From a virus: a stretch of DNA of 22,928 nucleotides. A program made the translations under genes and the position numbers. Positions 1-18,929 of this stretch are shown here, in pieces (positions within the stretch are counted from its first letter, which is position 1; every line of letters begins with the position of its first letter). The stretch covers positions 1-22,928 of IMG/VR virus record IMGVR_UViG_3300028844_002446; one strand, 5' to 3'. A model generated the notes under the pieces. The model was not told the origin of the DNA, made no database searches, and worked only from the letters and a program-made list of their open reading frames with translations.

Positions 1-100
1 TAAATGGCAAAGAACAATTTTCCTTCACCATTTTATAAAGTCTATTTACCCATGTGTGGTCATACTTTGTGCCATATTTGACACATACGATGTTGATCAT
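1..100 (-). CDS. Probable glycosyltransferase, N-terminal fragment
   Basis: A gene starts with ATG at 100-98 and stays open to the left edge of the window, giving 33 codons. The start overlaps the TGA stop of the upstream oxygenase-like gene (ATGA arrangement), which suggests translational coupling. The visible peptide begins MINIVCVKYGTKYDHTWV and continues with NRLYKMVKENC. This resembles, from memory, the N-terminal strand and helix of a phage and bacterial glycosyltransferase-like family that opens with 'VCVKWG-x-KY...YVNRLYxMVxxN'. The catalytic part is outside the window, so the activity is inferred from the opening alone. Its position beside another glycosyltransferase supports the call. 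The fragment is too short for its length or donor sugar to be judged. Confidence 0.7.
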   Translation of the reverse strand, partial: MINIVCVKYGTKYDHTWVNRLYKMVKENCSLPF

Positions 101-780
101 ACTGGATCTTCCAAGTCTTCAATAACCTCTTGCCAAACTGTTTCATGTGGACCCCAAACATATGCGACAGATATTCTAAGGCAGTCTGTGCTTGCAGCAT
201 GGTAACACAGATCATCAGTCTCATCATACGAACCAAAGTATGTCATCTTTGCTTGCCAACCAGCATGGTCAGGAATACGAACACGTTCTTTCTTATCAGC
301 ATCCCAATAGTCAAACCAGCCATCACCATTTTCAGACCAAGAGAGAATAAGATTGTAACCAGCGGCGTTAGCATTGTTGTGCCAAGAGATAAACCCACCT
401 GGTGGGTAAACCGAGACCAAAGTATTTTTCTTAGCGGATAACTCAGTCATCAAAGTGTCATTGAGTTTCTGGCTCTGATCACGATAGCTGATTATGGTAT
501 TCATATATTCTTTACTGCCATTTCCCAAGGAGTTATCTGGCATTAGGTCTGCATAAGATTGAAGTTTATCTGGATATCCTTTGTGACCTCTGCCTTCATC
601 CATAATCTTATGCATATATTCGTCAGACAGATAATCACTAGGTTTGTCTTCTTTACAGTTGACACGAAGTTTTTGTTTCATCTCTCCAGAGTCGTGCCTT
701 GTCTGAATGAACTCTCTAAACTCTTCCAGCGCATTTAAAACAACGGTGTTGTTTATTGTGATATCCTTCACTTCTTTCAT
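97..780 (-). CDS. 2-oxoglutarate/Fe(II) oxygenase-like protein
   Basis: This 227-residue protein looks like a cupin-fold 2-oxoglutarate and iron dependent oxygenase of the kind carried by marine T4-like phages. The core runs from about residue 120 to 210: a GGFISWH strand with His134, a WSENGDGWFDYWD segment at 148-160, a loop with GW at 174-175, and a closing YHAAS segment with His194 followed by Arg202. His194 plus an Arg eight residues later fits the usual distal iron ligand and 2-oxoglutarate carboxylate anchor. The first ligand pair reads His134-Asn-Asn136 rather than His-x-Asp/Glu, which is unusual. Residues 1-115 are helical-looking and unassigned. The ATG overlaps the stop of the upstream glycosyltransferase gene (ATGA), so translation is probably coupled. 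The substrate is unknown; protein hydroxylation of a fibre is one possibility. Confidence 0.7.
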   Translation of the reverse strand: MKEVKDITINNTVVLNALEEFREFIQTRHDSGEMKQKLRVNCKEDKPSDYLSDEYMHKIMDEGRGHKGYPDKLQSYADLMPDNSLGNGSKEYMNTIISYRDQSQKLNDTLMTELSAKKNTLVSVYPPGGFISWHNNANAAGYNLILSWSENGDGWFDYWDADKKERVRIPDHAGWQAKMTYFGSYDETDDLCYHAASTDCLRISVAYVWGPHETVWQEVIEDLEDPV

Positions 781-1571
781 GCTTTAAAATCCTTATTCAT
801 AGATGCGGAATGGTGAATTAGAATGGGATGCTTATCTACTAGATTGTGCTTTCCATTTTCATCTTGTCTAAAACTAGTAAACCAGTTCCACCTGTAGTTT
901 TCTTTAAATATACCTATACTTAGTTCCTTATACTTAGGAACTTTATTTACCAACCACCAAAGAGTGAACTGATCCCATCGTAACATACTCGAAGGAGTGT
1001 CTTCTGGAAACCACTTATCTTCCTTTGGCTTGTTTCCACGATTTTTGCTGTATTGATACCAACTCTCTTGGATCACAAACATGTCCCACCAATCTTGCAT
1101 AAAGTCCTTGACAAGAGGATTTTTCATGTTATATAGACAGACACCGCCGCATAGTGTCAAATCAATCTTATCTCCTGTGCTAGGAATAGGAGCCGAGACC
1201 TCTACAAAACTACGTTGTGCTCTCTCATCTTTAGTCAACTCAACAAACTTCATATCATCATCACCAATCTGATCCCAGATAGTAATGATATCTTCGTGTT
1301 GACATTCTTGGTCAGCATCGATATACATTGTCAAGTCAAAAGGAGAGTTAGCCATACCATAAAGCTTAGATCGTATGTGATCTTGACAGTCAAAAACTTG
1401 GATGTTGAGACATATGGCCCTGTGGTCTAAGAATCTTTTTTCTGTAAACAAGGCAAACTGAGCATCTGGATATTCATCCATGATCGATTCGATTAGATTA
1501 ATCGCTGAGTAGTAAAACGCAACCTTCTTTGACGCTACGATTACAAAGCCTTTACTTTGTTTCGATTTCAT
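777..1571 (-). CDS. GT-A fold glycosyltransferase-like protein
   Basis: This is a 264-residue protein with the pattern of a nucleotide-sugar-dependent glycosyltransferase. An N-terminal strand (GFVIVAS) is followed by a segment at 67-87 reading R-S-K-L-Y-G-M-A-N-S-P-F-D-L-T-M-Y-I-D-A-D, where Asp85-Ala-Asp87 is the DxD motif expected to hold the metal and sugar nucleotide. A CGGVCLYN motif at 141-148 resembles the acceptor-side 'NxGvxlyN' signature of this superfamily. A tryptophan-rich region follows (WWDMF, WDQFTLWWLV) and the C-terminus has LIHHSAS. No signal peptide or membrane segment is seen, so it is probably cytoplasmic. It overlaps the upstream gene by 20 bases and the downstream oxygenase by four. 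The acceptor is unknown; the adjacent Ser/Thr/Asn-rich fibres or a host glycan are both plausible. Confidence 0.82.
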   Translation of the reverse strand: MKSKQSKGFVIVASKKVAFYYSAINLIESIMDEYPDAQFALFTEKRFLDHRAICLNIQVFDCQDHIRSKLYGMANSPFDLTMYIDADQECQHEDIITIWDQIGDDDMKFVELTKDERAQRSFVEVSAPIPSTGDKIDLTLCGGVCLYNMKNPLVKDFMQDWWDMFVIQESWYQYSKNRGNKPKEDKWFPEDTPSSMLRWDQFTLWWLVNKVPKYKELSIGIFKENYRWNWFTSFRQDENGKHNLVDKHPILIHHSASMNKDFKA

Positions 1572-2004
1572 TATTATACTCTTCTTGGATTAGCATCGTA
1601 AGGAATGCTTGCATTTCAAAAATACTTCTGGCTTTTCTGATTTTGGATTTCAGCTTTCTATTAGAAGAGTTTTTAATAGATTCAATCTCAAACACCTCTA
1701 GCTTGGCATTGAATAGCTGTTCAAGTTTGTGTGCTTGGTCACGCTCTTTGCGCTTTCGTTTATCGTTGTCAGCCCTCTGCCTGTGCCGATCTTCTCTTTC
1801 TTTCGTATTACGATCAATCTTTTCAACACCATTCTGTGCAATGATTGCTTCGTAATCCTCAGTGAGTTTTCCATCACGAGTATATTTACTCACGGTTGCA
1901 GTTGATGTGCTTTCTTTACCATCACTATGCTTGATGGTCAATTTGGCAGTGATCCTATCCTTCTGGTAATTTTCCCAGAACGGATGTTTCCATTCTTTAT
2001 TCAT
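1552..2004 (-). CDS. Basic charged protein of unknown function
   Basis: I do not recognise the family of this 150-residue protein with confidence. Residues 1-60 look like a small beta domain (KLTIKHSDG, STATVSKYTRDGK). Residues about 65-100 are very rich in Arg, Lys, Asp and Glu with heptad-like spacing (KEREDRHRQRADNDKRKRKERD), suggesting a helix or coiled coil, and the C-terminal third is again helical. The start ATG at 2004 is preceded by AGGAG at a six-base distance, a good ribosome binding site. The gene lies just after the long fibre gene and overlaps the glycosyltransferase gene by 20 bases. A fibre assembly helper or a non-virion protein are both possible; nothing in the sequence decides. 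Confidence 0.78.
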   Translation of the reverse strand: MNKEWKHPFWENYQKDRITAKLTIKHSDGKESTSTATVSKYTRDGKLTEDYEAIIAQNGVEKIDRNTKEREDRHRQRADNDKRKRKERDQAHKLEQLFNAKLEVFEIESIKNSSNRKLKSKIRKARSIFEMQAFLTMLIQEEYNNEIETK

Positions 2005-2030
2005 TACAATCTCCTAGTATTAATCACTAT

Positions 2031-2038
2031 TATATATA
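2031..2038 (-). promoter_or_regulatory. Possible degenerate T4-type late promoter box
   Basis: The 39-base gap between the long fibre gene and the 150-residue gene holds, on the minus strand, TATATATA, which differs from the T4 late box TATAAATA at one position. It lies 27 bases before the ATG at 2004 and upstream of an AGGAG ribosome binding site. Its placement is right for a promoter of the modification cassette, but the match is imperfect and the region is simply AT-rich. Confidence 0.3.
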
Positions 2039-2043
2039 CGCTA

Positions 2044-5000
2044 CTAAGCAGTCCTCACATATAGCGTGTAAGTCTCAATATTTGTGTTTCCACTTTGGAT
2101 CGTTAGTCCAGCATAGTTACCAGTGTAATCACCTATAAAGTTCCCCACATAGTTGCCAACAGAATCTCTCGTTGACGGTACATTTTCACCTTGGTAGTTA
2201 GCGTCATAGTTACCAGTATAGTTGCCCGTGTAATCTCCAGTAAAATCACCAGTATATGTTTCTTGGTCATCACGAGTGAACTGACCTTCATACGTCGCAG
2301 TATAGTTACCAGTGAAGTCGCCAGTATATGTTTCTTGGTCATCACGAGTGAACTGACCCTCATAAGTTCCTTCATAGTCACCAGTAAAGTCACCAACATA
2401 GTTACCATCATACTGTTCATCTTGAACTCTAGTGAATGTGCCAATATAGTTACCAGTGAAGTCGCCAACATAGTTCCCACCATAAGCTACAGTAGAATCA
2501 CGAGTGAATGTACCAATGTAGTTACCAGTGTAGTTACCAGTATAATCATCAGTGGAATCACGCTGTGAGTTTCGAGTAGAATCGGCCCCATCATAGTTGC
2601 CAGTATAGTTGCCAGCAAAAACATCAGTTGAATCACGAGTTGAATCACGAGTCGAGTCTGCGCCATCATAGTTACCAGTATAGTTTCCAGCAAAAACAGC
2701 AGTTGAATCACGAGTCGAAACCCTTGTTGAATCAGCACCGTCATAGTTGCCAGTATAGTTGCCAGTGTAATCACCAGTAAAGTTGCCTGTGGAAACCCTT
2801 GTCGATATACGTGTAAAGATTGCAAGATAGTTACCTGTGTAATCACCTAAGAAGTTGCCAGTTGATGTCCTTTGTGAGTTTCGAGTCGAATCACGAGTAA
2901 AGTTTGCAGCATAGTTACCAGTGTAGTTACCAGTATAATCTCCTAGGAAATCACTAGTGGAATCACGAGTCGATACACGAGTAAAGTTTGCAGCATAGTT
3001 ACCAACAAAGTTACCAGTAAAGTTATTAGTTGAGTTACGAGTCGATGTTCGTGTAGAAGTACGAGTTGATGTTCTAGTATACTGACCGTCATAGTTACCC
3101 ACAAAGTTGCCTGCAAAGTTACCTGCAAAGTTACCTATAAAGTTTCCAGTATAACCAACAGTAGAATCACGAGTAAAGTTTCCAGAATAGTTACCAGCGA
3201 AGTTTGCTTGGTAGTTACCAGTGAAGTTACCGTAGTTGGTAGCTGAAACACGTGTAAAGTTTGCGGCATAGTTGCCAGCAAAGTTTTGTAAAAGGTAATT
3301 ACCTATAAAGTTGCCTGTTGAAACTCTTGTCGAATCACGAGTTGATGTTCTGGTAGAAGTACGAGTTGATGTTCTAGTATATTGTCCATCATAGTTACCT
3401 AAAAAGTTACCAGCAAAGTTGCCAGCGAAGTTGCCAGCAAAATCTCCAGTAAACACCGCTGTTGAATCACGAGTAAAGTTTGCAAGATAGTTACCAGTGT
3501 AGTTACCAGTAAAGTTGCCAGTTGATGTTCTTTGTGAGTTTCTTGAACTAACTCTGGTAAAGTTTGCAAGATAGTTACCAGTGTAGTTACCCGTGTAATC
3601 TCCTAGAAAGTCATCAGTCGAATCACGCTGTGAGTTACGAGTAAAGTCTGCCCCATAGTTACCACCGTAGTTACCAGTATAATCATCAGTCGAATCACGA
3701 GTTGAGTTTCTTGTGCTGTCTCTGGTAAATGTACCAATATAGTTACCAGTATAGTTGCCCGTAAAGTTACCAGTGTAGTTTTCTACGTCATCTCTCGTAA
3801 AGGTGCCAACATAGTTACCAGTATAGTTTCCAGTAAAGTTACCTGTATAGTTTTCTACATCGTCACGAGTAAAAGTTCCGATATAATTGCCAGTATAATC
3901 ACCAGTAAAGTTACCTGTTGAAACTCTTGTCGAATCACGAGTTGAGTCTGCACCATCATAGTTGCCAGTGTAGTTGCCAGTGTAGTTCCCTACAAAGTCA
4001 TCGGTAGAGTTACGAGTTGAATCAGCACCTTCATAGTTGCCAGTATATTGACCAACATAATTTCCTAAAAAGTCTTGTGTGGAGTTACGAGTGAATGCTG
4101 CACCATCATATGCACCATCGTAGTTACCTGTATAGTTACCAACGAAATCGTCTGTTGAGTTACGAGTAAATGCTGCACCATCGAAGACTGCATCATAGTT
4201 ACCTGTATAGTTTCCTATAAAATCATCAGTCGAGTTTCTCTGAGAGTTTCGAGTAGAATCTCTTGTAAACGCACCAAGGTAATCTGTGAATGCTCCGACA
4301 TAGTTGCCTTCATAGTTACCTTCGTATGTTACGGTAGAATCACGCTGTGAGTTTCTTGTATAGTTTGCATCTGCAGTTGTCTGTTTTGTATCAGTGGCAG
4401 TACCCTTGGCAACCCATGTTCCTGTTACTGTAGGAGCACCTTGTGTGCCAGTTCTCAATAGATACGAGCCAATGGATGTAGCCATGATTCTGTTTTGGCA
4501 TGTTTTGCCAAGGGTGTACCCAATCTGTCCTACAGTTGCTTCTTGAATACCAGTAAAAGACAATCCTTCATCTTGAGGTGTACCTTTGAGCCTCACATAC
4601 TTGACAGTCGATGGTGCCGACATAGCAGTACGTTTCCAAATGCTATAGTTTACAGTATTGCCATCAGCACGTGTATCAGTAAACACGTTAGAGTGTGCTG
4701 CAGTGTAATCACCACTCGGCGCACTTGTCGCAAGCTTGTATGTGCCAGGATAATCATTCTCATGGATAATTTTATTCAAACGATCCACAAGAATGTTAGT
4801 ATCCGAATCTGCCATCTCTTGTAGTTTGTCATTAACAAATGCAACTGGTCTACGAAAGCCATCCGAATCAACAAGGGATGTCGTACCAGATCTCTGATAG
4901 ATTATTTGGTTTTCCGTAGTTGTTGAGCCAACTGGATCTCCAACACTGTCAGCAAAGAATGTATTGGTAAAGGTACCTATAGCATCATCACCAGAACCAG

Positions 5001-5165: not shown

Positions 5166-6824
5166 CTACGCTGTTCTAACATACAATGTATAAGTATCTA
5201 TAGTAGTATTGCCTGCTTGTATGGTTTCGCCAGAATAATTTCCTACGAAATCATCAGTTGAATCTCTTGTGAACTGACCGTCATAGTTTCCGATAGAGTC
5301 TCTGGTATAGGCACCATCATAGTTTCCGATAGAGTCTCTGGTATAGGCACCATCATAGTTTCCTTGAGAGTTTCTGGTAAAAACTGCTGTAGAATCTCTT
5401 GTGTACTGTCCGTCGTAGTTACCAGTATAGTTACCAGTAAAGTTACCAGTAAACACCGCCGTGGAGTTTCTGGTAAAGGCGTCACCACTTCCGAGATCGT
5501 CGCCATCATAATTAACATCAGATGCGCTAAGGTAGTCACCAGTATAAGCCCCTACATAGTCACCAGTGTAGTTGCCAATAAAGTTAGCTGTATAACTTGC
5601 AAATAATCTCGTTGAGTCACGAGTTGATACACGAGTAAAGTGCTGCGCAGCATCAATACCACCAGTATAGTCACCAGTGTATGTAATAGTACCAGTATAG
5701 CCAGCATAGTTTGCCGCAACTACACTGTTTCGAGTATATGGGTTGTCAGTTTCTAAGGCAGGTCGAACACGTACATAATCACCAATAAAGTTACCAGCAT
5801 ATTGACCATCATAGTTACCAGTAAAGTCGCCAGTAAAGTTATCAGTTGAATCACGAGTAGAATCTCTTGTATATGTGGCATCATAGTTACCAATAAAGTT
5901 ACCAGTATAGTTGCCAACATAATCACCAACGAACTGACCGCCATAGTTACCAACATAATCACCAGCATATTGACCGCCATAGTTACCAACATAATCACCA
6001 GCATATTGACCGTCATAGTTACCAGTAAAGTTACCAGTAGAAGTTCTGGTATAGCTTACATCAGCAGTTGTTTGTTTCGTGTCTGTGGCTGTGCCTTTGG
6101 CTACCCAAGTTCCAGTAGCAGTGGGAGCACCTTGAGATGCATTTCTTAGTAAGTATGTACCAATACCAGTAGCCGTAATTCTTGTCTTTGCTCTTTGCCC
6201 AAAGGTGTATTGGATCTCAGCCGCATCCATGGCTTTTATATCAAAAGTGTTATGTAATATTTGTGGAGCAACCTTAGTTGGTACTGAACCACTAGTTTTT
6301 ATCCAAATGCTATAGTTAATTGATGTGCCGTCTGTTCTTGTATCAGTAAACACATTAGAAAGTGCTGCAGTCCAATCACCACCAGGAGAACTAGCAGCAA
6401 GTCTACGACACCCAGGATGTTCGTTTGCAAAAGTTTTTAAAAGTGCTCTGTCAACAATAGTATTAAGTTCTGTGTCATTTGCAGCTTTGAGTGCCACAAC
6501 ATCACCTGTTGCAGACCTATCAAAAATCACAGGTTTATGAAAGTTTCCTCCGCTTTCAGAGGCTGTTCCAGTTGTCTGTTTCAGTGTCACAGTGGTAGTT
6601 GTAGTCGTAAGAGATCCATCGTGGCTTCCCACGGCATCATCGAAACTAGTATCAGTAAATGTTCCAACTGTGGTACCACTGCCTGATGCTTTCAGACCAG
6701 CATTACTGGTACCTGGTGTATCAAGAGAAAGTCTTAACCCTATTTGATAGGCTATATAATTCTCTTCGGCATGAGTTATCTTTGTTAAGTTACCGTTAGC
6801 ATCGGCTTTGAGTAGGGCATCCAC
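5166..6824 (-). CDS. Short fibre-like paralogue with four-residue repeats
   Basis: This 552-residue protein has the same architecture as the longer fibre downstream: head domain 1 to about 257, four-residue repeat region about 258-528, and a conserved C-terminal 22 residues ending DTYTLYVRTA. The repeats include G-N-Y-D-G-A-Y-T-R-D-S-I copies and Y-A-G-D-Y-V-G-N-Y-G-G-Q copies, each encoded by an exact 36-base tandem duplication. A less repetitive island lies near residues 355-440, with a VRVRPALETDNPYTRNS stretch and a GDDLGSGDAF turn. The start is GTG at 6824: AAGGA lies eight bases upstream, the reading frame is closed a few codons further up, and the resulting N-terminus aligns with that of the paralogue. 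It is likely a virion fibre; head and cap conservation suggests that both paralogues attach and fold the same way. Confidence 0.83.
   Translation of the reverse strand: MDALLKADANGNLTKITHAEENYIAYQIGLRLSLDTPGTSNAGLKASGSGTTVGTFTDTSFDDAVGSHDGSLTTTTTTVTLKQTTGTASESGGNFHKPVIFDRSATGDVVALKAANDTELNTIVDRALLKTFANEHPGCRRLAASSPGGDWTAALSNVFTDTRTDGTSINYSIWIKTSGSVPTKVAPQILHNTFDIKAMDAAEIQYTFGQRAKTRITATGIGTYLLRNASQGAPTATGTWVAKGTATDTKQTTADVSYTRTSTGNFTGNYDGQYAGDYVGNYGGQYAGDYVGNYGGQFVGDYVGNYTGNFIGNYDATYTRDSTRDSTDNFTGDFTGNYDGQYAGNFIGDYVRVRPALETDNPYTRNSVVAANYAGYTGTITYTGDYTGGIDAAQHFTRVSTRDSTRLFASYTANFIGNYTGDYVGAYTGDYLSASDVNYDGDDLGSGDAFTRNSTAVFTGNFTGNYTGNYDGQYTRDSTAVFTRNSQGNYDGAYTRDSIGNYDGAYTRDSIGNYDGQFTRDSTDDFVGNYSGETIQAGNTTIDTYTLYVRTA
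5281..5352. repeat. Exact 36-bp tandem duplication
   Basis: Positions 5281-5316 and 5317-5352 are identical over all 36 bases. A third, diverged copy begins at 5353. The unit encodes 12 residues, i.e. three of the four-residue modules, in the short fibre protein. Perfect identity, synonymous positions included, indicates a recent slippage or duplication event. Confidence 0.95.
5941..6012. repeat. Second exact 36-bp tandem duplication
   Basis: Positions 5941-5976 and 5977-6012 are identical over 36 bases, and a partial diverged copy lies just before 5941. The unit codes for 12 residues of the form Y-A-G-D-Y-V-G-N-Y-G-G-Q in the short fibre. It has the same unit length as the duplication at 5281-5352 but an unrelated sequence, so 36 bases (three modules) seems to be a preferred duplication step. 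Confidence 0.95.
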
Positions 6825-6836: not shown

Positions 6837-9515
6837 TTAGTTAAGAAGCGTCCCATCCGAATCGAATATGCTAGGCACTTTTCTTGTCCAAATAAAGTTA
6901 CCAGACCCATTAGAAGCTAATGCTCTATATTTCGTTCCATTACTATCTATACCAGCCATTTCAGACACTGCGATAGAGTTTGTAGTAACAGCAATCTCAC
7001 CTGTACCACTTGTGTATGTAATCGAGTTACCACCGCTGAGTGCGGCTCTTGGTTTGGTTGTTTCTTGCGCTTTCAGTTCGTTGATTGCCCCTACCAAATC
7101 ACTTGCAGATGTATTCAAAGATCCACCAGTGATTGTTCCAGCAAATGTTACGTTTGCACCTGCGAATGTTGCTGCAGTTGTTGTGCCTGATTTAATAATC
7201 AAGTTTCCGCTTGTATTAGTAAGTGAACCGAAAGTAGTACCAGCATCTTTAAGGAATACATCACCACCATCAGCATCAAGTGAAATATCACCTACCGCAT
7301 CAAGAGTCAAGGCATCAGATGCCGTAATGGTTTGAGTAGATGTACCCATAGTAAACCTAATCTGCTCTCCAGATGTAACACCTTGAAAGAATACATCATC
7401 ACCAGTTGGTTTTAAATAAATGTCACCTGACGTTGAGGTTTCGAGAGTTAAGTTTCCGCTTGCTCTTGTAATCGCATTGGCGTTTATTGTAGTGTTATCA
7501 ACTAATACTGAACCAAATGTTACAGCATCACCATATCTAGCAACTGTTTGTTTATCGTTTTTAGTACCGATTTTCCAGATATTATTGGTTTCATCCCAGA
7601 ACAGTTCAGCAGAGTCTTGAGTACCACGTCTGACACTTAGTGTTGCGTCATAAGTTGGAGATGATGGAGTTGCACCAGAAGATGTACCATCAAGCAACCT
7701 AATCTCGTTTGAAGCGTTTTTCTGAGAACCAGTTGTTGTAATATTACCGTTGACCGTGATATCAGAATCAAATGTTACAACACCGTGGAATTGGCTGTTG
7801 GATCGACCACCATTTGCTGTAAAGGTTAAACCTCTTGCATCACTTGATGTCCCAGAAGCAATTCTAAGATCACCATTTTCTTGTCGAAGAGCACCAAACT
7901 GTGTTCCACCGTCTTTATATTCTATAACACTACCATCTGCATCTAGTGTGATATTTCCAGTAGCATCGAGTACAAGAGCATCAGATACAGCAACAGTCTG
8001 TGTTGTGGTACCCATTGTAAACTTGATTTGTTCATTAGAAGTAGTACCTCTAAAATATACATCATCACCAGTAGGTTTGATGTAAATATCACCAGCAGCA
8101 CTTACAGTAAGATCACCACTTGATAGAGCAATCGAAGTGTCATCAATGTGCATGTTATCTACATCAATACCACCATCTGCAGTCACAAGTCCAGTTACAT
8201 CAAGTGTACCAGAAGTTGCGATATTGCCAGAAGTATTAGCAACCGTAAATGCTCCGTCAACATCGATGCCACCATCGAGTGACGCAAGTCCAGTTACATC
8301 AAGTGTACCAGAAGTTGCGATATTACCAGTAGTATTAGCAACTGTGAATGCTCCATCAGCATCAATACCACCGTCAAGTGAAGCAAGCCCAGAGACATCA
8401 AGTGTACCAGTGGTTGCTACATTACCAGTAGTATTAGCAACAGTAAATGCACCATCAGCATCAATACCACCATCAAGAGATGCGAGTCCACTCACATCAA
8501 GAGTACCTGTTGTCGCAACATTACCATTGGTATCAGCAACAGTAAATGCACCATCCATGTCGATGCCGCCATCAAGAGATGCTAACCCAGATACATTGAG
8601 TGTGCCAGTGGTCACAACGTTACCTGTGGTATTTGCAACACTAAATGCGCCACCATCAGCAGTTATACCACCATTAAGTGTGGTAAGTCCAGTTACACCA
8701 AGAGTGCCTGATGTTGCCACATTACCTGTTGAGTTGGCTACGGTAAATGCTCCATCCACATCAATACCAGCATCGAGTGATGCAAGTCCAGATGCGTTGA
8801 TTACACCGAGAGTAGATGTTCCAGTTACGCCGAGAGTTGTTCCTACTGTGACACCAGCAGTAAATGCAGCGGAGTCACCCTTGATACCATCTAGATTCGC
8901 AACTCCATGAACGTGTAAGTCTTCCCATTGTTTTGAAGAACTACCAAGATTATATGTAGCATCAGCATCTGGTATGATATGTGAGTTTACTTCGCCTGTC
9001 AGTGTGATGGTATCAGTGGCAGCATCACCAAGATTGATGTTATTATCTGCGCCAGCTTTGAATGTAACTTGACCATCAACCGTAAGAGTACCAGCCATTG
9101 TGGTATTACCAGCGACATTCAGTTTGCCATCAATGACAACATTGTTCATAAACTCTGCGCTGTCTTGAACAATCAGTTCTCCAGCGAGGTTTGTATTACC
9201 ATCTACAACAACATTGTTTCGAAACTCAGCACTGTCTTTGGCAATAAACTCGTTGAACTCTACATTAGATGCTTGCTTAACCGCTTGGTCAAGTAGTTGA
9301 TCTATAGAGTCGAGTCTATAATCAACTTCGTTGATAGCTTCGATTGCACTTGAATCAGCCCCAGAAAACGTTTTTGGTGAAAGTGGACCAGATCCTATTC
9401 CTACAAATCCGCCAGTTGTCAAGGTGGCAAGATCCCCAACCTTGTTAGTCAGATTGTTGAACTCATCCTTGAACTGGTCTATTCTGTTAGTTAACACTAT
9501 ATAAGCTTTAGCCAT
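6837..9515 (-). CDS. Tail-fibre-like protein with 33-residue repeats
   Basis: This 892-residue probable fibre or baseplate-attached structural protein starts with a helical N-terminal region (residues 1-100; FKDEFNNLTNKVGDLATL, then EVDYRLDSIDQLLDQ) of a type I associate with marine T4-like virion proteins. Paired 'DSAEF.NNV' units follow. From about residue 234 to 452 there are six full and one partial tandem repeats of about 33 residues (GTLDVSGLASLDGGIDADG, then AFTVANTTGNVATT), suggesting a stacked beta-helix. Residues about 453-557 and 672-782 are an internal duplication sharing IKPTGDDV, QI.FTMGT and DALTLDA-like strands. A segment near 625-655 (SVRRGTQDSAELFWDETNN) is familiar from marine phage fibres. 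The C-terminus ends in SIFDSDGTLLN with no chaperone or cleavage domain. It begins one base after the 65-residue gene. Confidence 0.83.
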   Translation of the reverse strand: MAKAYIVLTNRIDQFKDEFNNLTNKVGDLATLTTGGFVGIGSGPLSPKTFSGADSSAIEAINEVDYRLDSIDQLLDQAVKQASNVEFNEFIAKDSAEFRNNVVVDGNTNLAGELIVQDSAEFMNNVVIDGKLNVAGNTTMAGTLTVDGQVTFKAGADNNINLGDAATDTITLTGEVNSHIIPDADATYNLGSSSKQWEDLHVHGVANLDGIKGDSAAFTAGVTVGTTLGVTGTSTLGVINASGLASLDAGIDVDGAFTVANSTGNVATSGTLGVTGLTTLNGGITADGGAFSVANTTGNVVTTGTLNVSGLASLDGGIDMDGAFTVADTNGNVATTGTLDVSGLASLDGGIDADGAFTVANTTGNVATTGTLDVSGLASLDGGIDADGAFTVANTTGNIATSGTLDVTGLASLDGGIDVDGAFTVANTSGNIATSGTLDVTGLVTADGGIDVDNMHIDDTSIALSSGDLTVSAAGDIYIKPTGDDVYFRGTTSNEQIKFTMGTTTQTVAVSDALVLDATGNITLDADGSVIEYKDGGTQFGALRQENGDLRIASGTSSDARGLTFTANGGRSNSQFHGVVTFDSDITVNGNITTTGSQKNASNEIRLLDGTSSGATPSSPTYDATLSVRRGTQDSAELFWDETNNIWKIGTKNDKQTVARYGDAVTFGSVLVDNTTINANAITRASGNLTLETSTSGDIYLKPTGDDVFFQGVTSGEQIRFTMGTSTQTITASDALTLDAVGDISLDADGGDVFLKDAGTTFGSLTNTSGNLIIKSGTTTAATFAGANVTFAGTITGGSLNTSASDLVGAINELKAQETTKPRAALSGGNSITYTSGTGEIAVTTNSIAVSEMAGIDSNGTKYRALASNGSGNFIWTRKVPSIFDSDGTLLN
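8160..8815 (-). repeat. 99-bp tandem coding repeats
   Basis: Six to seven imperfect copies of about 99 bases encode the 33-residue units of the 892-residue protein. Central copies are the most alike at the protein level and outer copies more diverged, the usual pattern when expansion occurs in the middle of an array. A long open frame on the opposite strand across 8137-8910 is a by-product of this repetition. Confidence 0.88.
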
Positions 9516-11340: not shown

Positions 11341-14300
11341 TCAGTATTCACCGCATGTGCCTTCACTAGAGCCTCCACAACCTTTGTTATGAACAAGCAT
11401 ACCGTTTGCGTAATATGTATGGTTTCCACTGAGACCTAAGTTGTATAGTTCAAGTTCTGGCTCTCTTTCTTGAGGTACCCAAGATTCGATTTTCATTTCA
11501 CCAGTTTCTGTTACAATGGTTGTTCCTACATTAATGTCAACCAGATGTCCACCATTCTCTTCCATTACTGCTTCATATGTTTCTGGTTCCATTTCTCTAA
11601 ATGTATTTGCATTGATAGACCCCCAACCTTCGGTAGTCATCAATGGATGTTCTTCAGATACAAATGGTTCAGAACCATTAAATCCGTACAACATTCTTGA
11701 ACCAATAGGAACGATTTCAATATCTGACACCTCGTTGCCATGAACCTTACCACACTTATCACATTCAGAACTTTTCACAATATCACCACGTCTGACTGCA
11801 GAGATGTGTTTTGTAGATCCATCTACCATTGTAATAAGTGTATCGGAAGTGAAACACGACTGATGCACATAAGGTGGTCTGATATTTGCGGCGTATCTTG
11901 TAGCCACACTGACTGCAAAATCATATTCTCTTGTTACCAAGAACTCTTCTTGTGATACTCTTAACTCACCTTCTGCTGTAAATACACCTTTTGTATACGA
12001 TGAGGCATTAGCAGTTTTATGTGTTTGAACATCAGTAATAAGTATTTCACGTCTACCTGTATTGAACTGTATAGTTGATGTGTTTGGTATGAGAATGTAA
12101 CCAGACAACGCACCATTAGCGTCAGTAGTGTGTGTTGTTGCCCCACCAAGTACGGCAGGATATCCTGTTTCATTTTTCCATCTCTTACCCATTTTTCTGT
12201 AAATAGAATCACGAGCAAGACTTGCTTCTGCAACAAATCCACCAGTACCAGATGCCGTGCTTGCATAGCCACTTACTTCTGTTTTATCAATAAAGATGTA
12301 ATGTTTTGTATTGGGTCTCAAGCCTGTTGCTCTGATAGAAACAAACCTTGAGCGCATCTTTTTGATTTCTGTTTTAGCTACAATTTTCTCGCCTAAACTT
12401 TCAGTAACTGTTTCGCTACCAGTAAATTTCCAAGTTCTTGTAGTTGTAGTAGTGCCACCAGAGTGGAACTCTCCATTACCAGTTACCGCTGTAACACCAG
12501 TTTTCTGATCGATAATTTCGCCAACTTTATATGCATTGGCATCCTCTGCAGTAATACCTCTCCAACTAGTATCCCAGTTTTTATATTTTCTACCGTTTTT
12601 ACTAATCTTAGCACCACCGTCTACCAGCTTGTCTGGAAGATCTTTGTCTTCATACCAAACATCTGATGATGGTGACATAGTTAAAGAACCACCCATAACT
12701 TGAGTACCCACTGGATTTACAATAATGGATCTTGATGCTCTTGATTGAGAGGCAAATAACTGATGTGTATATTTGATATAGATGTTATCCCCAACACGTT
12801 TAACATTCGTTGAAGATGCCGAGTCATACACAAGAGGAACAGAATATGCTCTGAAATCTGGTCTAATCTCTCCTTTGATTTCGTCACGAGATGACCTATA
12901 GTTTGAGTCGAGTGTGTCCGTACCAATATCGTTGACAAAGTTGTCAACAAAAATACCAGACTTAAATCTGTTCAAGCCAGCACTGTCATAGATGTTAATG
13001 TTTTGCCTATTCAATTCTAACATATTGAGTGCAGTTTGTTCTTCTAGTTCGTCGATACGCTTCTCAAGCGCACCAATATCTCTCATGGTATAACGACGGT
13101 TATCTTTATATTTGACTTTCTTATCTTCAGCACTTACCATATATGGATGAAGTTCGATAGATGCAATTTCCATTGTACCATCAGCCAGTGTAGGATACTT
13201 TGGTTCGAACGCTGGTTCACCAAACTTAACCCCAACATAGCCGTCTCTATGAACAAATGCTCTACCTTTTTTACCAAGGTAGTAGTTTACGTCAAGATCA
13301 ATATTATCAGTGTTTTTAGGTAAAGGATGAATAATAGCCCCTGTCGATGTAAAGTCATCAGCACTATTTGCCTTACGAGGTCTAAAGTCTAGAACGTTGA
13401 AAAGGGATATGACGTTACCATTTGTTTGTCTGTGGCCTGGAATCTCTTCGTATGCCACTTGTCCATCATAGGAGTTTACAGCGAAGAAGTCTCCAGTAGT
13501 ACCATGGTCAAAGAAACGATACACGATATTAACATTTCCAGAAGGTGCTGGTTTACCACCTTTTAGTTTAACCGATCCAACGTCATAGAAGTTATCTCTC
13601 TGCCCATTGTCAAGAGTAAAGTTTCTTGTAATATTTTTGGAAGTTGTGGCATCAGTAATAGATGTGATGTCAAATATATCACAACGATCTAGTGTAGCAA
13701 TACCGCCTGACAATGAAACACCATTCTGTGTTCTCGTCGTAATAGTTTTTGATCTTGCTGTAGCAACTCTTTTCTTTTGGTAATATAAGAATGTAGCAGC
13801 AGAAGAGTTAGGTAAGCCAGACAATGTAACTTGTGAGACAGATGATGCAGAAACAGTAGCATCAAAAAGTGTTCCACTTGAATCAATTCCTACAAGCCAA
13901 GTTGAGGCATCAGCAAGATCAAAGGCCGTGCTAGATCTGTTGATTACCAAAGTACCTGAACCTGTTGTTGTACCAGTTCCTCTATACTGTGCAGTCACAG
14001 AAATGTCGCTCAACTCTTCTGGTCTTTCTCTTGGAAGTTCAAACAACAAGTTGTTGTTCTGCTTATCTTTGAGTTCTGCAATACCAGTTGTAGATAGTTT
14101 TACATCAAAATATTCTGTAGCCGAATCGCCAAGTGATCTTACAAGAGATATATTTTTACCAGCATTCATTCTGATATCAAACAAGTATACTCTATAGATT
14201 GATCCAACCTTTTCAAGGGATCTTACTCTTGCAGTACCAATAGTTGAACCACCGTATGTAACAGCACTTCTCAGTTGGATTTTTTCAAAAGTGGTAATGT

Positions 14301-15447
14301 CTAGTAAGTTACCCTTACCAGTAGAACACTCGAAGTAGTTGCCATATTGAGCAATCGAAGATGTATTCTGTACAAGTCCAGTTGTTCTTGGTTTTGAATA
14401 AAATGGTGTTACTGGACCACGAAGATAGTATCTGTGACCTTCTACATATGCTTTACCTGGGTTAAATGTGATATCCAGATTAGAGGCATCAGAATCATTT
14501 GTGGCAAAATCAAGAAGGAAGTTACCAACAGTGTAGTTACCAGATTCTTCATGAGTTCTTCGAGCCATCTCGTCTCCCAAAGTGGAGTACGAGTTAGCTG
14601 CACTACTTTGCTCAACAATAACACCCTTGACGATCTGAGCAACTTCAATAAATCTTTGATCCGAATCTACAGTAGTGTCTAGCGTTAACTCTAGTTTAAT
14701 CTCATGTCTGTCAGCACCTGGTGCTGCTAGGTTAAGGTTTGCACCTGAGTTATCGAATAGATCTTGATCATCACTTGAGGTGATAACTCTTTCTACTACT
14801 TTAAATCCTACATTCGCTGTTGGTTTGTCATCATACTTTCCGACGATAATGTCTTCTGCTGCTTTAAAAACAGCATGACCATCAAGGTAAAATCTACCCA
14901 ACTGTTGACGGAACACACAAGATTGTCCGATAGCAGGGTTTGCTGCAGTGTTTGTTGTTTGGATTTCAAGAACAGTTCCAGTTGTAGCACCAGTAAGAGT
15001 TGTGCCTGGAGTAAGATCTAACGCTGTTGTGACATCAGTTGGCGTTTGTCCATTCGAATCTAGAATCTGTACAAAAATTGTAGCAGGATCAGATCCTGTT
15101 GCAGCAACTGCTTTTATCAATCTTATTTTGATTCCAGTTGTAGTGGCAAATGTCTCACCAGTAATAGTAGTGAGATCTGCTGGCAAAGAGTATGTTGTAG
15201 TATTAAGTTTTACGAACTTGACGTTCTGTTCCACATCCATAAGCCCACCAGAAAGTGGAGCACCTGATCTATAAATCGCACCGAGAGCCGCTGCATTATC
15301 TTGATTCAGAATAGTCTGTAGCTGGTTGAGTTCTCTACTCTGCAAGCCACGACCAGAGTTAAATAGGATTTGATAATAGTTGTCACTATCCTTATAGTCA
15401 TCCTTATATTGAGTAAGGAATAGATCTTTGATTACTTCGGTTGCCAT
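11341..15447 (-). CDS. Giant structural protein ending in a Hint autoprocessing domain
   Basis: This 1368-residue protein has an N-terminus (LFLTQYKDDYKDSDNYYQIL, then FNSGRGLQSRELNQLQTIL) that matches, from memory, the DUF4815-type structural proteins of marine T4-like phages. A short heptad-like helix lies near 797-820 (KRIDELEEQTALNMLELN), followed by the 'FVDNF' region and a long beta-rich stretch. Residues 1198-1354 form a Hint domain: Cys1198 with F-T-S-D-T-L-I-T-M-V-D-G-S, a GDIV turn, block B S1264-E-E-H1267-P, block F LYNLGLSGNHTYYANGMLVH, and the terminal His1353-Asn1354. Only 14 residues follow, KGCGGSSEGTCGEY. The +1 residue is Lys, so full protein splicing is not expected; cleavage at one or both ends is. 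The ATG has AAGGA six bases upstream and is 12 bases after the gp8 gene. Confidence 0.85.
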   Translation of the reverse strand: MATEVIKDLFLTQYKDDYKDSDNYYQILFNSGRGLQSRELNQLQTILNQDNAAALGAIYRSGAPLSGGLMDVEQNVKFVKLNTTTYSLPADLTTITGETFATTTGIKIRLIKAVAATGSDPATIFVQILDSNGQTPTDVTTALDLTPGTTLTGATTGTVLEIQTTNTAANPAIGQSCVFRQQLGRFYLDGHAVFKAAEDIIVGKYDDKPTANVGFKVVERVITSSDDQDLFDNSGANLNLAAPGADRHEIKLELTLDTTVDSDQRFIEVAQIVKGVIVEQSSAANSYSTLGDEMARRTHEESGNYTVGNFLLDFATNDSDASNLDITFNPGKAYVEGHRYYLRGPVTPFYSKPRTTGLVQNTSSIAQYGNYFECSTGKGNLLDITTFEKIQLRSAVTYGGSTIGTARVRSLEKVGSIYRVYLFDIRMNAGKNISLVRSLGDSATEYFDVKLSTTGIAELKDKQNNNLLFELPRERPEELSDISVTAQYRGTGTTTGSGTLVINRSSTAFDLADASTWLVGIDSSGTLFDATVSASSVSQVTLSGLPNSSAATFLYYQKKRVATARSKTITTRTQNGVSLSGGIATLDRCDIFDITSITDATTSKNITRNFTLDNGQRDNFYDVGSVKLKGGKPAPSGNVNIVYRFFDHGTTGDFFAVNSYDGQVAYEEIPGHRQTNGNVISLFNVLDFRPRKANSADDFTSTGAIIHPLPKNTDNIDLDVNYYLGKKGRAFVHRDGYVGVKFGEPAFEPKYPTLADGTMEIASIELHPYMVSAEDKKVKYKDNRRYTMRDIGALEKRIDELEEQTALNMLELNRQNINIYDSAGLNRFKSGIFVDNFVNDIGTDTLDSNYRSSRDEIKGEIRPDFRAYSVPLVYDSASSTNVKRVGDNIYIKYTHQLFASQSRASRSIIVNPVGTQVMGGSLTMSPSSDVWYEDKDLPDKLVDGGAKISKNGRKYKNWDTSWRGITAEDANAYKVGEIIDQKTGVTAVTGNGEFHSGGTTTTTRTWKFTGSETVTESLGEKIVAKTEIKKMRSRFVSIRATGLRPNTKHYIFIDKTEVSGYASTASGTGGFVAEASLARDSIYRKMGKRWKNETGYPAVLGGATTHTTDANGALSGYILIPNTSTIQFNTGRREILITDVQTHKTANASSYTKGVFTAEGELRVSQEEFLVTREYDFAVSVATRYAANIRPPYVHQSCFTSDTLITMVDGSTKHISAVRRGDIVKSSECDKCGKVHGNEVSDIEIVPIGSRMLYGFNGSEPFVSEEHPLMTTEGWGSINANTFREMEPETYEAVMEENGGHLVDINVGTTIVTETGEMKIESWVPQEREPELELYNLGLSGNHTYYANGMLVHNKGCGGSSEGTCGEY
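11386..11856 (-). other. Hint (intein/hedgehog-like) domain, residues 1198-1354
   Basis: The domain carries the expected catalytic set: Cys1198 for the N-S acyl shift, block B S-x-x-H with His1267, the block F His1343, and a C-terminal His1353-Asn1354 pair for Asn cyclisation. There is no homing endonuclease insert; 157 residues is a mini-intein size. A C-x-x-C pair (Cys1229, Cys1232) with His1236 sits in a loop after the first strand block and could bind zinc. Lys at +1 and a Cys/Gly/Ser-rich tail resemble bacterial-intein-like elements more than classical inteins. Confidence 0.85.
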
Positions 15448-15459: not shown

Positions 15460-16830
15460 TTATATCTCGATGATGACTTTGATGTCTTCAGTTTGGTCTG
15501 CTGCTCTCAATACGGCTGCTCTATTCTCTACGTATAGCAAGTCTCCAGTAAAAGGCATTGCCACTGGTTTCAAGTTAAATCCAGAACCAAGAAGTGTACC
15601 AGTATTATTGTCGGAGTCTTTAACTCCCTCACCTGCTTGGAATGGAGTAAATCCTGTTCCTTCTGTCTGATGATACCAAATCTCATCCGAATCCGTTTTA
15701 TTTATAATGCCTTTAGCACCTGATGTCACACCTGACAATGTAGAGCCAATGGTCATTGCGAGACCAGTTGCCGTTGACATCTTCAGTCTATATAAGGCAT
15801 TACCAGCGGTTGCGGTAAATGCAGCATCAGCAGAGTCGAGTGGGTTTCGAATGATACCAATCGTTCTAAAATCATTTCCGATTACAAACTCATTTGTTTC
15901 AGTTCCAGCAGGTTTGATATTAAACATAATAGCACGTGCTCGTAGATCGTTTCTTGGATCTGCACCAAACCCACCTACTGGACCTAAAATGGCTCTTGCA
16001 GTGGCTGGTGTGGTAGGAGATCCGCCAGAGATTACGGCTTCGGCATAGTTGTAACCAGATCCAATAACAAGAGTACCTGCTGATTCGTCCATTTCGATTT
16101 TAGTAACAACACCACCTGATACCGTAGCAACTGCTCTTGCTCCAGTTCCATTACCTTTGATTGTTACAGAAGGAGCAGATGTATAACCAGCACCACCACC
16201 AGTGACAATAACACCACTTAATGAACCATTAATAGCAGCATCTTGAACACCTTTTTGTTCTACTAGCTGTGACAAAGAGGTAACACTACCAGATCCATCT
16301 GAATCAAGTTTACCTTGTTTTAAAACAGGGTGGAAGTTAGAAGCAAGGAAAGAAGACTGATTAGGCGTGGTCATTGTGTATAAAAACTTCCAAGCATATC
16401 CATCTGCATATGTCTTTACAACATTATCAACACCAGTTGGTTTTACAGTAGATGTAACCGCAGCACCAAGTGCGTTTTTACCTTGTCTCACACAAAGATA
16501 GACAGCGTTTGTATCTGTCATTACATAATATGGAGATGTAGGGTGTCCTGCTGCATTATCATTATATGCGCTATAGGTTGTACCAGTGATCCAGTTATTT
16601 CTCGGCACAACAAAACTAAAATCAGCAACCCTTTTCATAGACTGTAGACCAAGACGGAAATTTCTAGATTCTCTTTCAGTTTGCTCTGGGGTTGGTGCAA
16701 GGTCCGAATCATTCCATGGTTCGGATTTGCCAATACCAATATAATATTTCGCACCAGCGGAGTCTGTAATATCGTCAAGGATATCTTGGATAACTTGTTT
16801 CTTCAAGTCGTGTGTAATGATTGCAGCCAT
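15460..16830 (-). CDS. gp8: Baseplate wedge protein gp8
   Basis: This is the baseplate wedge subunit gp8, which in T4 connects gp10, gp7 and gp6 in the wedge. The call rests on colinear matches to T4 gp8 as I recall it: YIGIGKSEPW at 30-39, VPRNNWITG at 75-83, DGYAWKFLYTM at 143-153, and a C-terminus LYVENRAAVLRAADQTED with T4's 'IYMENRPPIIMAMDQTEE'. It is 456 residues against about 334 in T4. The extra length is largely an insert at about 203-285 (GVIVTGGGAGYTSAPSVTI and GSGYNYAEAVISGG), a Gly-rich beta domain frequent in marine phage virion proteins, plus a SGAKGIINKTDSDE segment at about 365-385. The ATG is preceded by AGGG, 15 bases after the upstream gene. Confidence 0.92.
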   Translation of the reverse strand: MAAIITHDLKKQVIQDILDDITDSAGAKYYIGIGKSEPWNDSDLAPTPEQTERESRNFRLGLQSMKRVADFSFVVPRNNWITGTTYSAYNDNAAGHPTSPYYVMTDTNAVYLCVRQGKNALGAAVTSTVKPTGVDNVVKTYADGYAWKFLYTMTTPNQSSFLASNFHPVLKQGKLDSDGSGSVTSLSQLVEQKGVQDAAINGSLSGVIVTGGGAGYTSAPSVTIKGNGTGARAVATVSGGVVTKIEMDESAGTLVIGSGYNYAEAVISGGSPTTPATARAILGPVGGFGADPRNDLRARAIMFNIKPAGTETNEFVIGNDFRTIGIIRNPLDSADAAFTATAGNALYRLKMSTATGLAMTIGSTLSGVTSGAKGIINKTDSDEIWYHQTEGTGFTPFQAGEGVKDSDNNTGTLLGSGFNLKPVAMPFTGDLLYVENRAAVLRAADQTEDIKVIIEI

Positions 16831-16845: not shown

Positions 16846-17886
16846 TTATGCTATGATTACTCGATTGCCTAGACCACCAGCGGAATCGAGACCAATCAGA
16901 TACCAGCCAGGTGTTGCACTGGCAGCAGTTGTTGCGTTATATACAGCATCGACTGCTGCTTTACTTTGTAGTGTGAATGATGTCCCTTGAGCAAATGTGG
17001 CAGGAGTAACTGTTACTGCCCCAGTGTTAATATTTACAAATCTCATGATTTGTCCATTATTACCATTTGCTAAAGTATTGGTGCCAGCCCCAGATTTATT
17101 TAAAAGTGCTACAGGTGCAGTAAGTGCTATAGCAGCAGCATCACTTGCAGTGTAGTCATCGTGCTTCATACTGAAAGCTTCTACTCTCAGTGTTCCAGTA
17201 CCTTTGCCTTTCAATATAAAGTTAATATTAGTACTGGCACCGATTGCTTCCATACTAATGTCATTTCCTGCGGTAGCACTATTGATTTGAGGATAGTTTA
17301 CTGCAGAAGCAACTGTTGGTAGATTTAGAATGGGGTTCCCAGCAGAGTCTTGTAGTTGAGTACCAATATGAGGATTTCTTAGAACAGGAGAAACATATCT
17401 TTTAGATCCACTCAGAGTAGATGTTGAGGTATTTGTGATAAGTGTATCACTATCGGTAAGTGTAGGAATATTCAAGTTGATATTCTTAGTCATACCAGAA
17501 GCAGTTGGTGGCACAAGTTCGTAAAAGTTGTTTGCATCAGCCGAGTCATATAGATCTGTATTTACTAGCACAGGAGAAATCAATGTTTTCTTGTGCAATG
17601 ACTGTGCAGCAGTAGTAATCACCAAAGCCCCAGTAGAGTCTGGCATAGTAATAACATTATCTTTAGTTGGTTGTAATACAGTCAGCCGTGTTTCATGAGC
17701 ATCTGGATTAGTACCTTCAAAGACAAGATTATTAGGCTCAAGGAAAACACTTGAGTTAGTGGAATCACCACCTAGAATATTATACAACTCGGTAAAGTTA
17801 GCATTAATTTTAGTCGTGGCACCACGGAGCGTATCGCCTGTACCGTCGTTTGCAACTGTGCCACTCTGTAATACTTGTCTTGCCAT
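16846..17886 (-). CDS. Virion structural protein, unassigned
   Basis: This 346-residue protein starts MARQVLQSGTVANDGTGDT and continues with LRGATTKINANFTELYNILG. The 'NDGTGDTLR...KINxNFxELY' pattern is common at the N-termini of tail and fibre-associated proteins of marine myoviruses. The middle has Gly/Ser/Thr-rich beta strands (NVITMPDSTGALVI; GSKRYVSPVLRNPHIGTQL), and the last 70 residues (NGQIMRFVNINTGAVTVTP, then GWYLIGLDSAGG) look like a small beta domain also seen in such proteins. It sits between gp6 and gp8 in a baseplate cluster, so a baseplate-associated role is likely, but T4 has no obvious counterpart. It has its own late promoter box and an AGGA ribosome binding site. Confidence 0.78.
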   Translation of the reverse strand: MARQVLQSGTVANDGTGDTLRGATTKINANFTELYNILGGDSTNSSVFLEPNNLVFEGTNPDAHETRLTVLQPTKDNVITMPDSTGALVITTAAQSLHKKTLISPVLVNTDLYDSADANNFYELVPPTASGMTKNINLNIPTLTDSDTLITNTSTSTLSGSKRYVSPVLRNPHIGTQLQDSAGNPILNLPTVASAVNYPQINSATAGNDISMEAIGASTNINFILKGKGTGTLRVEAFSMKHDDYTASDAAAIALTAPVALLNKSGAGTNTLANGNNGQIMRFVNINTGAVTVTPATFAQGTSFTLQSKAAVDAVYNATTAASATPGWYLIGLDSAGGLGNRVIIA

Positions 17887-17935: not shown

Positions 17936-18919
17936 TTATACAGCAGAGTCTTTAAATTTCTCTTGGTCAAGGGTTTCTATTGTGTTATCCAGACTGATAG
18001 ATGTTTTCAGTGCTGTGCCATCTGAGTCCATATCCATCGTTGGAGATGTTGCCCTCACCATATCAAACAGTGATGGATACTGTTCTGCATTGAATGCGAG
18101 TGAACCAAATCCAGTTGAGTCTTGTGTGACAAGAGTATGAGCAGATAGAGTCATTCTATCAAGATCAAGGCGTCTTGTAACTCCTTCAGATGTGATAATA
18201 CCAGTTGGTTCTCCAAGAGAAGCTGGAGCCATGCTACCAATACCCAGATATACAACTGGCGCTGGAACATCTGGAATAAAGATAGGCATATTATCAAATG
18301 ATATGTCAGCGTTTACCGAAACAATTTTAACCTCACTTGCATAGTACATACCAGCAGGATGAGCGAATAACTCATATAGATCTTTCCACTCATTTTGTTG
18401 GATACCTAGTTTAAATAGCAATCCCCAGTGTTGAAAAACTTTATCATTTTGTATTCTATTTTCTGTATCTGGTCCAAGAACAGAACCGTTAGGTCCATCA
18501 TTTAGATTAAAGATAAGATCCCTACCATAGATAACCTCTGGATCTTCTTTGAAGAATGATCTAAAAAACCTTTCAAAAGAATACTTGGTACCCTTTGTCC
18601 TATAGTAGTTGTTTGCAAGTTCAGCACCTGTTCTCTTGTCAAGAATACCTTCAAGGTAGTTACCACCAAGTAGGAGTTCATCTTCAAGTAGTGTTAGGTT
18701 TTCTTTTGCTGTTTGTGCTATATCTCTGCTTGAAGGTAGGTCTTTAATCTTAAACCCAAAGTTACCATCAGAATCTAGATGTTCGTAGTACGTATCCAAA
18801 AGTTTTACAAGCTTTGGATATTCCTCTTGAAAATATTCTGGTAAAGCCTTGTCGATTTGGTTGTTACCAAACTCAAGTTCTCTTCGATTGATATCTCTTC
18901 TGGTTTTATCTATAGCCAT
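17936..18919 (-). CDS. Baseplate-region structural protein, unassigned
   Basis: This 327-residue protein has the feel of a conserved marine T4-like virion protein, but I cannot name its T4 counterpart. The N-terminal 130 residues are helical (LPEYFQEEYPKLVKLLDTYYEHLD; ELANNYYRTKGTKYSFERFF). The Y-x-T-K-G-T-x-x-S-F motif at 106-115 resembles a motif of P2-gpI-like and wedge-type baseplate proteins as I recall them, which would make it a wedge component. Residues 160-230 include a W-x-x-L-Y-E-L-F-A-H-P-A-G-M-Y segment. It lies where T4 has gene 7, between gp6 and gp8, but is a third of the gp7 length, so equivalence is only positional. It starts 10 bases after the gp6 gene and lacks a strong ribosome binding site. 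Confidence 0.8.
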   Translation of the reverse strand: MAIDKTRRDINRRELEFGNNQIDKALPEYFQEEYPKLVKLLDTYYEHLDSDGNFGFKIKDLPSSRDIAQTAKENLTLLEDELLLGGNYLEGILDKRTGAELANNYYRTKGTKYSFERFFRSFFKEDPEVIYGRDLIFNLNDGPNGSVLGPDTENRIQNDKVFQHWGLLFKLGIQQNEWKDLYELFAHPAGMYYASEVKIVSVNADISFDNMPIFIPDVPAPVVYLGIGSMAPASLGEPTGIITSEGVTRRLDLDRMTLSAHTLVTQDSTGFGSLAFNAEQYPSLFDMVRATSPTMDMDSDGTALKTSISLDNTIETLDQEKFKDSAV

Positions 18920-18929
18920 GACTTTTTTC

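Follow-up and report, generated by a model that had tools for sequence, protein, structure and literature searches.

The window analysed here is a 22,928-nt stretch of viral DNA (IMG/VR record IMGVR_UViG_3300028844_002446, positions 1 to 22,928), and it raises the question of why a long, repetitive tail fibre should be followed directly by genes for a basic protein, a glycosyltransferase, and an oxygenase-like protein. We refer to the two related fibres as F1 and F2, and to the downstream proteins as BP, GT, and OXY, respectively. An earlier reading of the DNA (the original prediction) proposed that this cassette may hydroxylate and glycosylate the fibre repeats inside the cell, with the Asn-X-Ser/Thr tripeptides (N-X-S/T sequons) of F1 as possible glycosylation sites. 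That the cassette belongs with the fibre gained support from a close linkage of the cassette to one type of fibre and from predicted folds resembling glycosyltransferases and 2-oxoglutarate (2OG) hydroxylases, while N-glycosylation at sequons did not hold up. Taken together, F1, BP, GT, and OXY probably form one functional unit, a fibre-dedicated module for cytoplasmic O-glycosylation and hydroxylation in T4-like marine phages.

An aromatic tetrapeptide repeat and its linked genes

The F1 repeat has a period of four residues, with an aromatic residue or Ser recurring at +4 in 88% of cases. Position 1 is T in 105 of its 187 tetrads, position 2 is G in 94 or R in 50, position 3 is N in 91 or D in 49, and position 4 is Y in 76, F in 54, or S in 51. 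K, C, H, M, and W are absent from its 753 aa, and P occurs once. The same pattern is seen in F2 (residues 255-530), a period-4 fibre gene upstream of F1 and outside positions 1-4362, to which the original prediction referred. When 77 cassette-linked fibres were pooled, Lys accounted for 0.85% and Pro for 2.02% of residues; position 3 held Q, S, T, or R besides N/D, and some fibres had a period of 6 or 10 (e.g., loci L041 and L040). Three features were constant: an aromatic Y/F once in four residues, a G in position 2 (mean 0.65), and a C-terminus resembling ETYTLYVR. Between F1 and the near relative L017, Y/F exchanges made up 20 of the 34 changes at position 4, and D-N swaps were the commonest change at F1 position 3 in two near-relative comparisons (19/58 and 9/19). 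No single residue stood out as modified in position conservation across near relatives. Aromatic-repeat fibres of 2000-3300 aa, much longer than F1, were also observed (L101, 2-6280; L026, 1-9150; L009, 7412-17455).

Hidden Markov models were iterated from the BP, GT, and OXY of the window, and all open reading frames (ORFs) were scanned with them. When IMG/VR was scanned with a cassette-blind pattern of three aromatic tetrads, 113 stretches were obtained, 102 with a tetrad ORF; the other 11 include divergent fibres and one unrelated locus. Among loci with enough downstream DNA, aromatic-tetrad ORFs were followed by BP in 60/63 (at least 0.7 kb downstream), GT in 55/56, and OXY in 45/46. BP was missed in L240 and L248, which offered only 746 and 835 nt to search, and the only locus without BP, GT, and OXY was L200, a 166-aa non-fibre protein. 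All four features were present in 55 loci, 35 of which are non-redundant by OXY (some contigs give several stretches). From the GT side, at loci that overlap the pattern-scan sets, BP was found in 77/77, OXY in 78/78, and the tetrad expression in 56/62. Two GTDB-binned contigs carry the same gene set.

A control scan with V/L in place of Y/F gave at least 120 stretches, 47 of them with 2.5 kb downstream, and any cassette match was found in 2/47 among the matches listed. The sole complete cassette among the 120 control stretches listed (L397) sits immediately behind an aromatic fibre of its own (421 aa), and the other matches listed were two weak, distant GTs. The co-occurrence across genomes anticipated by the original prediction is therefore borne out, with OXY at 45/46 against that control. 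Gene order was also observed to vary, as fibre-BP-GT-second fibre-OXY in L030, L037, and L047, as BP-OXY-GT in L088, and with GT set apart and followed by fibre-BP-OXY in L057. These permuted and interleaved orders argue that function, and not descent alone, holds the cassette genes together.

The suggestion that S-RIM2 and other Synechococcus phages carry the same fibre (67 tblastn records) was rejected, as the S-RIM2 repeat is TGN[V/L] and not aromatic. Profiles for GT, OXY, and BP had no matches (0/6 each) in six cyanophage records, with 1, 3, and 1 matches, respectively, in Phage C48C1 as the positive control. A long aliphatic tandem occurs in S-RIM2 only among the six, so this comparison rests on one lineage, for which the V/L scan is the wider control. 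The fibre of Synechococcus phage S-RIM2 (4990-10728) is an aliphatic period-4 repeat (TGNVTGNL); its 1913 aa contain 59 sequons, and the cassette is absent. Because Y/F is constant across linked fibres and the aliphatic control behaves differently, we conclude that the aromatic tetrad, and not the sequon, is the feature that travels with the cassette.

Sequons and the glycosyltransferase

F1 contains 42 N-X-S/T sequons (18 NYT, 13 NFT, 6 NST, and 5 others), in agreement with the ~40 originally reported. This is more than in 1000 composition shuffles (26.2 +/- 4.3, maximum 40), yet 38 of the 42 lie in the tetrad register, with N at position 3 and T opening the tetrad that follows. From the 83 N and 107 S/T present in 175 four-step neighbours, independence predicts 50.7 in-register cases of N followed by S/T, so the 38 observed represent a deficit (Fisher p 1e-4). 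Because the in-register count falls below expectation, the excess over shuffles is a by-product of the repeat; part of the deficit can be read as layout, namely the alternation of GNY-type and TRxS-type blocks. Across 72 of the 77 non-redundant cassette-linked fibres (the other five have too few tetrads), 769 sequons were found against 873.9 expected, with 28 fibres above expectation and 41 below.

Sequon density in linked fibres ranges from 0.2 to 5.6 per 100 aa, and several fibres have very few despite the cassette: L054 has 1 in 442 aa, L041 has 2 in 481, and L045 has 3 in 758, with Q in 77% of its tetrads at position 3 and N in none. The S-RIM2 repeat, without a cassette, is denser than the linked fibres at 13.2 per 100 aa. 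Against near relatives L017 and L010, respectively, Asn in sequons was retained no better than other Asn (22/30 vs 24/36, p 0.60; 16/19 vs 15/20, p 0.69), and whole F1 sequons were retained in 15/30 and 11/19 cases. As judged from these sequences, the N-X-S/T sequon is not the modification signal.

The AlphaFold2 model of GT had a predicted local distance difference test score (pLDDT) of 95.8, and its Foldseek matches, with E-values down to 1.2e-8, included UGGT and LgtC. The best VIA match was glycogenin (3t7n; Z 16.1, root-mean-square deviation [rmsd] 3.6, 195 aligned), followed by Skp1 alpha-galactosyltransferase (6mw5, Z 15.4), GlyE (14.7), and LARGE1 (14.5). We take all 50 listed structural matches to be GT-A enzymes, and the confident models predict a GT8-like GT-A fold with a DxD motif. 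Residues Y83, D85, and D87, among others, are invariant in an alignment of 50 diverse GT sequences. At E up to 0.1, members of this alignment matched PF01501 (GT8; 2/50), PF00535 (GT2; 11/50), and PF03407 (2/50), and the GT of the window itself matched none of the three. Against PDB sequences, the GT profile matched ribosomal eS25 (0.002, regarded as a chance match) and glycogenin (about 5); the OXY and BP profiles gave empty or chance matches.

The oxygenase-like protein and the surrounding genes

Nine residues of OXY (Y125, W133, H134, N136, D171, G174, W175, H194, and R202) are invariant in an alignment of 64 rows. The iron triad accordingly reads H134-x-N136...H194 in 64/64 rows, not H-x-D/E...H, and R202, eight residues past H194, fits the basic residue that binds 2OG. 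The OXY model (pLDDT 95.4) had a Pseudomonas prolyl hydroxylase as its best Foldseek match (4iw3, E 1.2e-6), with AlkB-like proteins lower in the list. VIA matches were PHD2 (3oui; Z 10.2, rmsd 4.0, 153 aligned), Dictyostelium PHD (6t8m, Z 9.8), and vCPH (5c5t, Z 9.1). The VIA list contained no AspH- or TET-like rows, an absence to which we attach no weight. On its model, OXY has the prolyl-hydroxylase (double-stranded beta-helix) fold, and we file it as sharing the fold only, because the H-x-D/E triad is replaced. Collagen-type hydroxylation of Pro or Lys was rejected on composition, firmly for the F1 repeat and less so for other fibres.

The nearest arrangement in a named phage was found in Phage C48C1 (L256; OQ984149, Kyanoviridae), where a 3347-aa fibre, BP, GT (44%), and OXY (38%) occur in the same order, all annotated as hypothetical. 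It differs from the window in that the gene behind OXY is annotated as L-shaped tail fibre assembly and not as a glycosyltransferase, and in having two further OXY copies, one between a tail-tube-like gene and uvsY and one (40130-40804) adjoining a NifU-like Fe-S assembly gene. Copies flanked by a gp19-like tail-tube gene and uvsY, immediately behind the major head gene, were observed in C48C1 (18267-18920), L091, L111, and L114, and in a tree of 72 rows the uvsY-type copies group as a single clade (100/100). C48C1 also has nucleotide-sugar epimerase and UDP-glucose dehydrogenase genes at 35326-37226, a possible sugar-donor supply.

The layout of the window is given in Table 1. The overlapping or coupled series originally described behind the fibre, consisting of a basic protein, a DxD glycosyltransferase, an oxygenase-like protein, and the start of a second glycosyltransferase, was confirmed in that order: the reading frames of BP and GT share 20 nt and those of GT and OXY 4 nt, and the start of the second putative glycosyltransferase overlaps the OXY stop as ATGA (translational coupling). 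A full-length relative of this last gene matches phrog_1962 'glycosyltransferase', and the gene is optional, being present in 16 of the 48 loci that extend 4 kb or more past OXY. In L260 (4043-6491) and L397 (5043-7927, minus), about four tandem ORFs each resemble the second glycosyltransferase by eye and lie on the strand opposite the cassette. The tail-module genes and the cassette are all on the minus strand, and searches of Pfam and PHROGs returned no family at useful E-values for the BP, GT, OXY, F1, or F2 of the window. The closest named phage for gp6 was C48C1 (40% identity), followed by cyanophages and phages of Pelagibacter and Methylophilales (about 31-32%). The DUF4815 protein closes with a Hint/intein-like stretch at residues ~1197-1276 (PF14623 Vint, E 5e-4, below Pfam's cut-off) and VHNKG near its C-terminus, which together suggest possible self-processing of a baseplate protein.

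Table 1. Features of the window and their positions
Feature	Positions	Strand	Basis or remarks
gp25	20793-21233	minus	T4-type baseplate, Pfam/PHROGs
gp6	18930-20792	minus	T4-type baseplate, Pfam/PHROGs
Baseplate wedge subunit	17936-18919	minus	Pfam/PHROGs
gp9/10-like	16846-17886	minus	Pfam/PHROGs
gp8-like	15460-16830	minus	Pfam/PHROGs
DUF4815 protein, large, tail	11341-15447	minus	Pfam/PHROGs
Long fibre-like gene, first of three ahead of the cassette	6837-9515	minus	
F2, second fibre of the F1 kind, 552 aa	5166-6824	minus	Tetrad repeat, aa 255-530, at 5235-6062
F1, tail-fibre-like, 1037 aa	2044-5157	minus	N-terminal domain, tetrad repeat, short conserved C-terminus IETYTLYVRTA
Tetrad repeat of F1, aa 263-1015	2113-4371	minus	187 tetrads x-[GR]-[ND]-[YFS], 11 non-4 steps
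BP, charged, 150 aa	1552-2004	minus	34 K+R, 27 D+E
GT, predicted GT-A/GT8-like glycosyltransferase, 264 aa	777-1571	minus	
GT DxD motif, D85 and D87, Y-I-D-A-D	1311-1319	minus	Invariant, 50 aligned sequences
OXY, 2OG oxygenase-like, predicted prolyl-hydroxylase fold, 227 aa	97-780	minus	
OXY H134-x-N136, in place of the usual H-x-D/E iron motif	373-381	minus	Invariant, 64/64 aligned rows
OXY H194 (distal His) to R202 (putative 2OG-binding Arg)	175-201	minus	Invariant, 64/64
Second putative glycosyltransferase, start only	1-100	minus	ATG at 100, runs off the window

Competing explanations and known systems

A fibre-dedicated module is the simplest explanation because linkage to the repeat is strict, fibre and cassette genes interleave, the predicted GT fold has protein glycosyltransferases among its best matches, and the predicted OXY fold is that of protein hydroxylases. 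The long fibre of aromatic tetrapeptides would be modified in the host cytoplasm before assembly. OXY would hydroxylate fibre side chains, with N, D, or R as usual 2OG targets on hand, and GT, as a GT8-like retaining enzyme, would add sugar to repeat hydroxyls, whether of Tyr, Thr, or Ser, or one introduced by OXY. Tyr as the acceptor would match a glycogenin-like GT, which is only a guess because Y and F exchange freely. BP would deliver or chaperone the fibre. We infer the fibre as substrate, activity of both enzymes, the order of the steps, and the role of BP, and the purpose may be stiffness, solubility, protease resistance, or adsorption.

Several observations weigh against such a module. 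Modification of the fibre is itself a prediction from linkage and folds. Active 2OG oxygenases usually carry H-x-D/E, and the invariant H-x-N of OXY means that it may be inactive or perform other chemistry. OXY paralogues occur away from the fibre, at the uvsY locus and beside a NifU-like gene; the uvsY-type context likewise adjoins virion genes, which we count in favour of the module. At 5 of the 77 non-redundant loci with a cassette, fewer than 10 aromatic tetrads are present in the ORF immediately upstream of BP. All closely examined loci are tail modules of the T4-like type, so common descent accounts for part of the signal. Finally, passages of PMC7029224 attribute modification of host lipopolysaccharide (LPS) to GT8-type enzymes encoded in this region of pelagimyophage genomes.

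That assignment speaks for the main rival explanation, in which the glycosyltransferases and the oxygenase alter the host envelope or exclude other phages and adjacency to the fibre reflects a host-recognition cluster. LgtC, an LPS galactosyltransferase, is also among the structural matches of GT. We consider this explanation unlikely: it is weakened because it gives no account of the preference for aromatic tetrads over aliphatic fibres (OXY 45/46 vs any cassette match in 2/47 among the control matches listed), and the cassette interleaves with fibre genes and nearly always includes OXY and BP. A small chance also attaches to OXY being non-catalytic or differently acting, with BP and OXY as assembly factors and GT alone modifying the fibre. 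The invariant H134-x-N136 speaks for this, with H194 and R202 kept; against it, Y125, W133, D171, G174, and W175 likewise do not vary, as would be seen in a maintained active site, and loss of catalysis would normally relax the pocket.

The two remaining alternatives are much less probable. Were GT a cytoplasmic N-glycosyltransferase using the F1 sequons, the 42 sequons above composition shuffles would be explained, but we regard this as very improbable given sequon counts below expectation in F1 and across the 72 fibres, sequon Asn kept no better than other Asn with D-N swaps commonest at position 3, nearly sequon-free fibres in L054, L045, and L041, and a sequon-dense S-RIM2 repeat without the cassette. 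Cytoplasmic N-glycosyltransferases (HMW1C/NGT, GT41) have a GT-B fold and no DxD, from which GT differs by its predicted GT-A fold and a DxD invariant in 50 rows, and the fibre is neither enriched in N-X-S/T nor conserves it. Phages do use an oxygenase with a glycosyltransferase on DNA, and AlkB-like proteins appear lower in the OXY fold list, consistent with hypermodification in which a base is hydroxylated and the product glucosylated. This seems the most remote of the explanations, as the cassette ends a tail operon beside one fibre type, OXY is structurally closest to prolyl hydroxylases that act on proteins, and GT8 enzymes that modify proteins are among the top matches of GT.

Few systems are known in which phage enzymes glycosylate the virion, and searches of one open-licence library turned up no account of an oxygenase and a glycosyltransferase together modifying a phage fibre. 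The BP-GT-OXY module is found repeatedly among marine viral contigs and supplies a well-defined candidate substrate repeat together with its enzymes, the four proteins being small enough for E. coli, and the OXY family represents oxygenases whose iron site breaks the H-x-D/E rule. A bolder proposal, which we hold only tentatively and consider doubtful, is that aromatic-tetrapeptide fibres are a new class needing oxygen-dependent hydroxylation and glycosylation by BP-GT-OXY to mature, with an H-x-N oxygenase that has unusual chemistry and whose targets are not Pro or Lys, as a phage counterpart of the Skp1 and collagen pathways.

Among known enzymes, glycogenin (GT8) and GlyE, the latter acting in glycosylation of pneumococcal serine-rich-repeat proteins, resemble GT in fold and have protein acceptors, but identity in the structural-match rows is 11-14%. 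Collagen-type modification, as by PBCV-1 vCPH, likewise involves a virus-encoded prolyl-hydroxylase fold acting on repeat proteins, and differs in that the F1 repeat has next to none of its target residues. The module would work like the Skp1 pathway or mycobacteriophage virion glycosylation, as far as passages on these systems describe them, and we file it in neither because the oxygenase departs from the usual iron triad and the glycan is predicted only. Virion glycosylation in mycobacteriophages Che8, Corndog, and Myrna (Freeman 2023, as cited in PMC12363180) shares phage-encoded glycosyltransferases with the window, where GT is linked to the fibre gene; it concerns capsid and tail tube in another phage group, with no oxygenase partner in the passages of that source. 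In the Skp1 pathway of Dictyostelium and Toxoplasma, PhyA acts first, then Gnt1, PgtA, and AgtA (passages of PMC3515798). That pathway is eukaryotic, single-site signalling, whereas the candidate substrate here is a repeat in a phage structural protein that is nearly devoid of Pro, and the oxygenase carries H-x-N. In both cases, a cytoplasmic oxygenase of prolyl-hydroxylase fold is paired with glycosyltransferases on one protein, as predicted for the phage module, and 6t8m and 6mw5 stand near the top of the fold matches.

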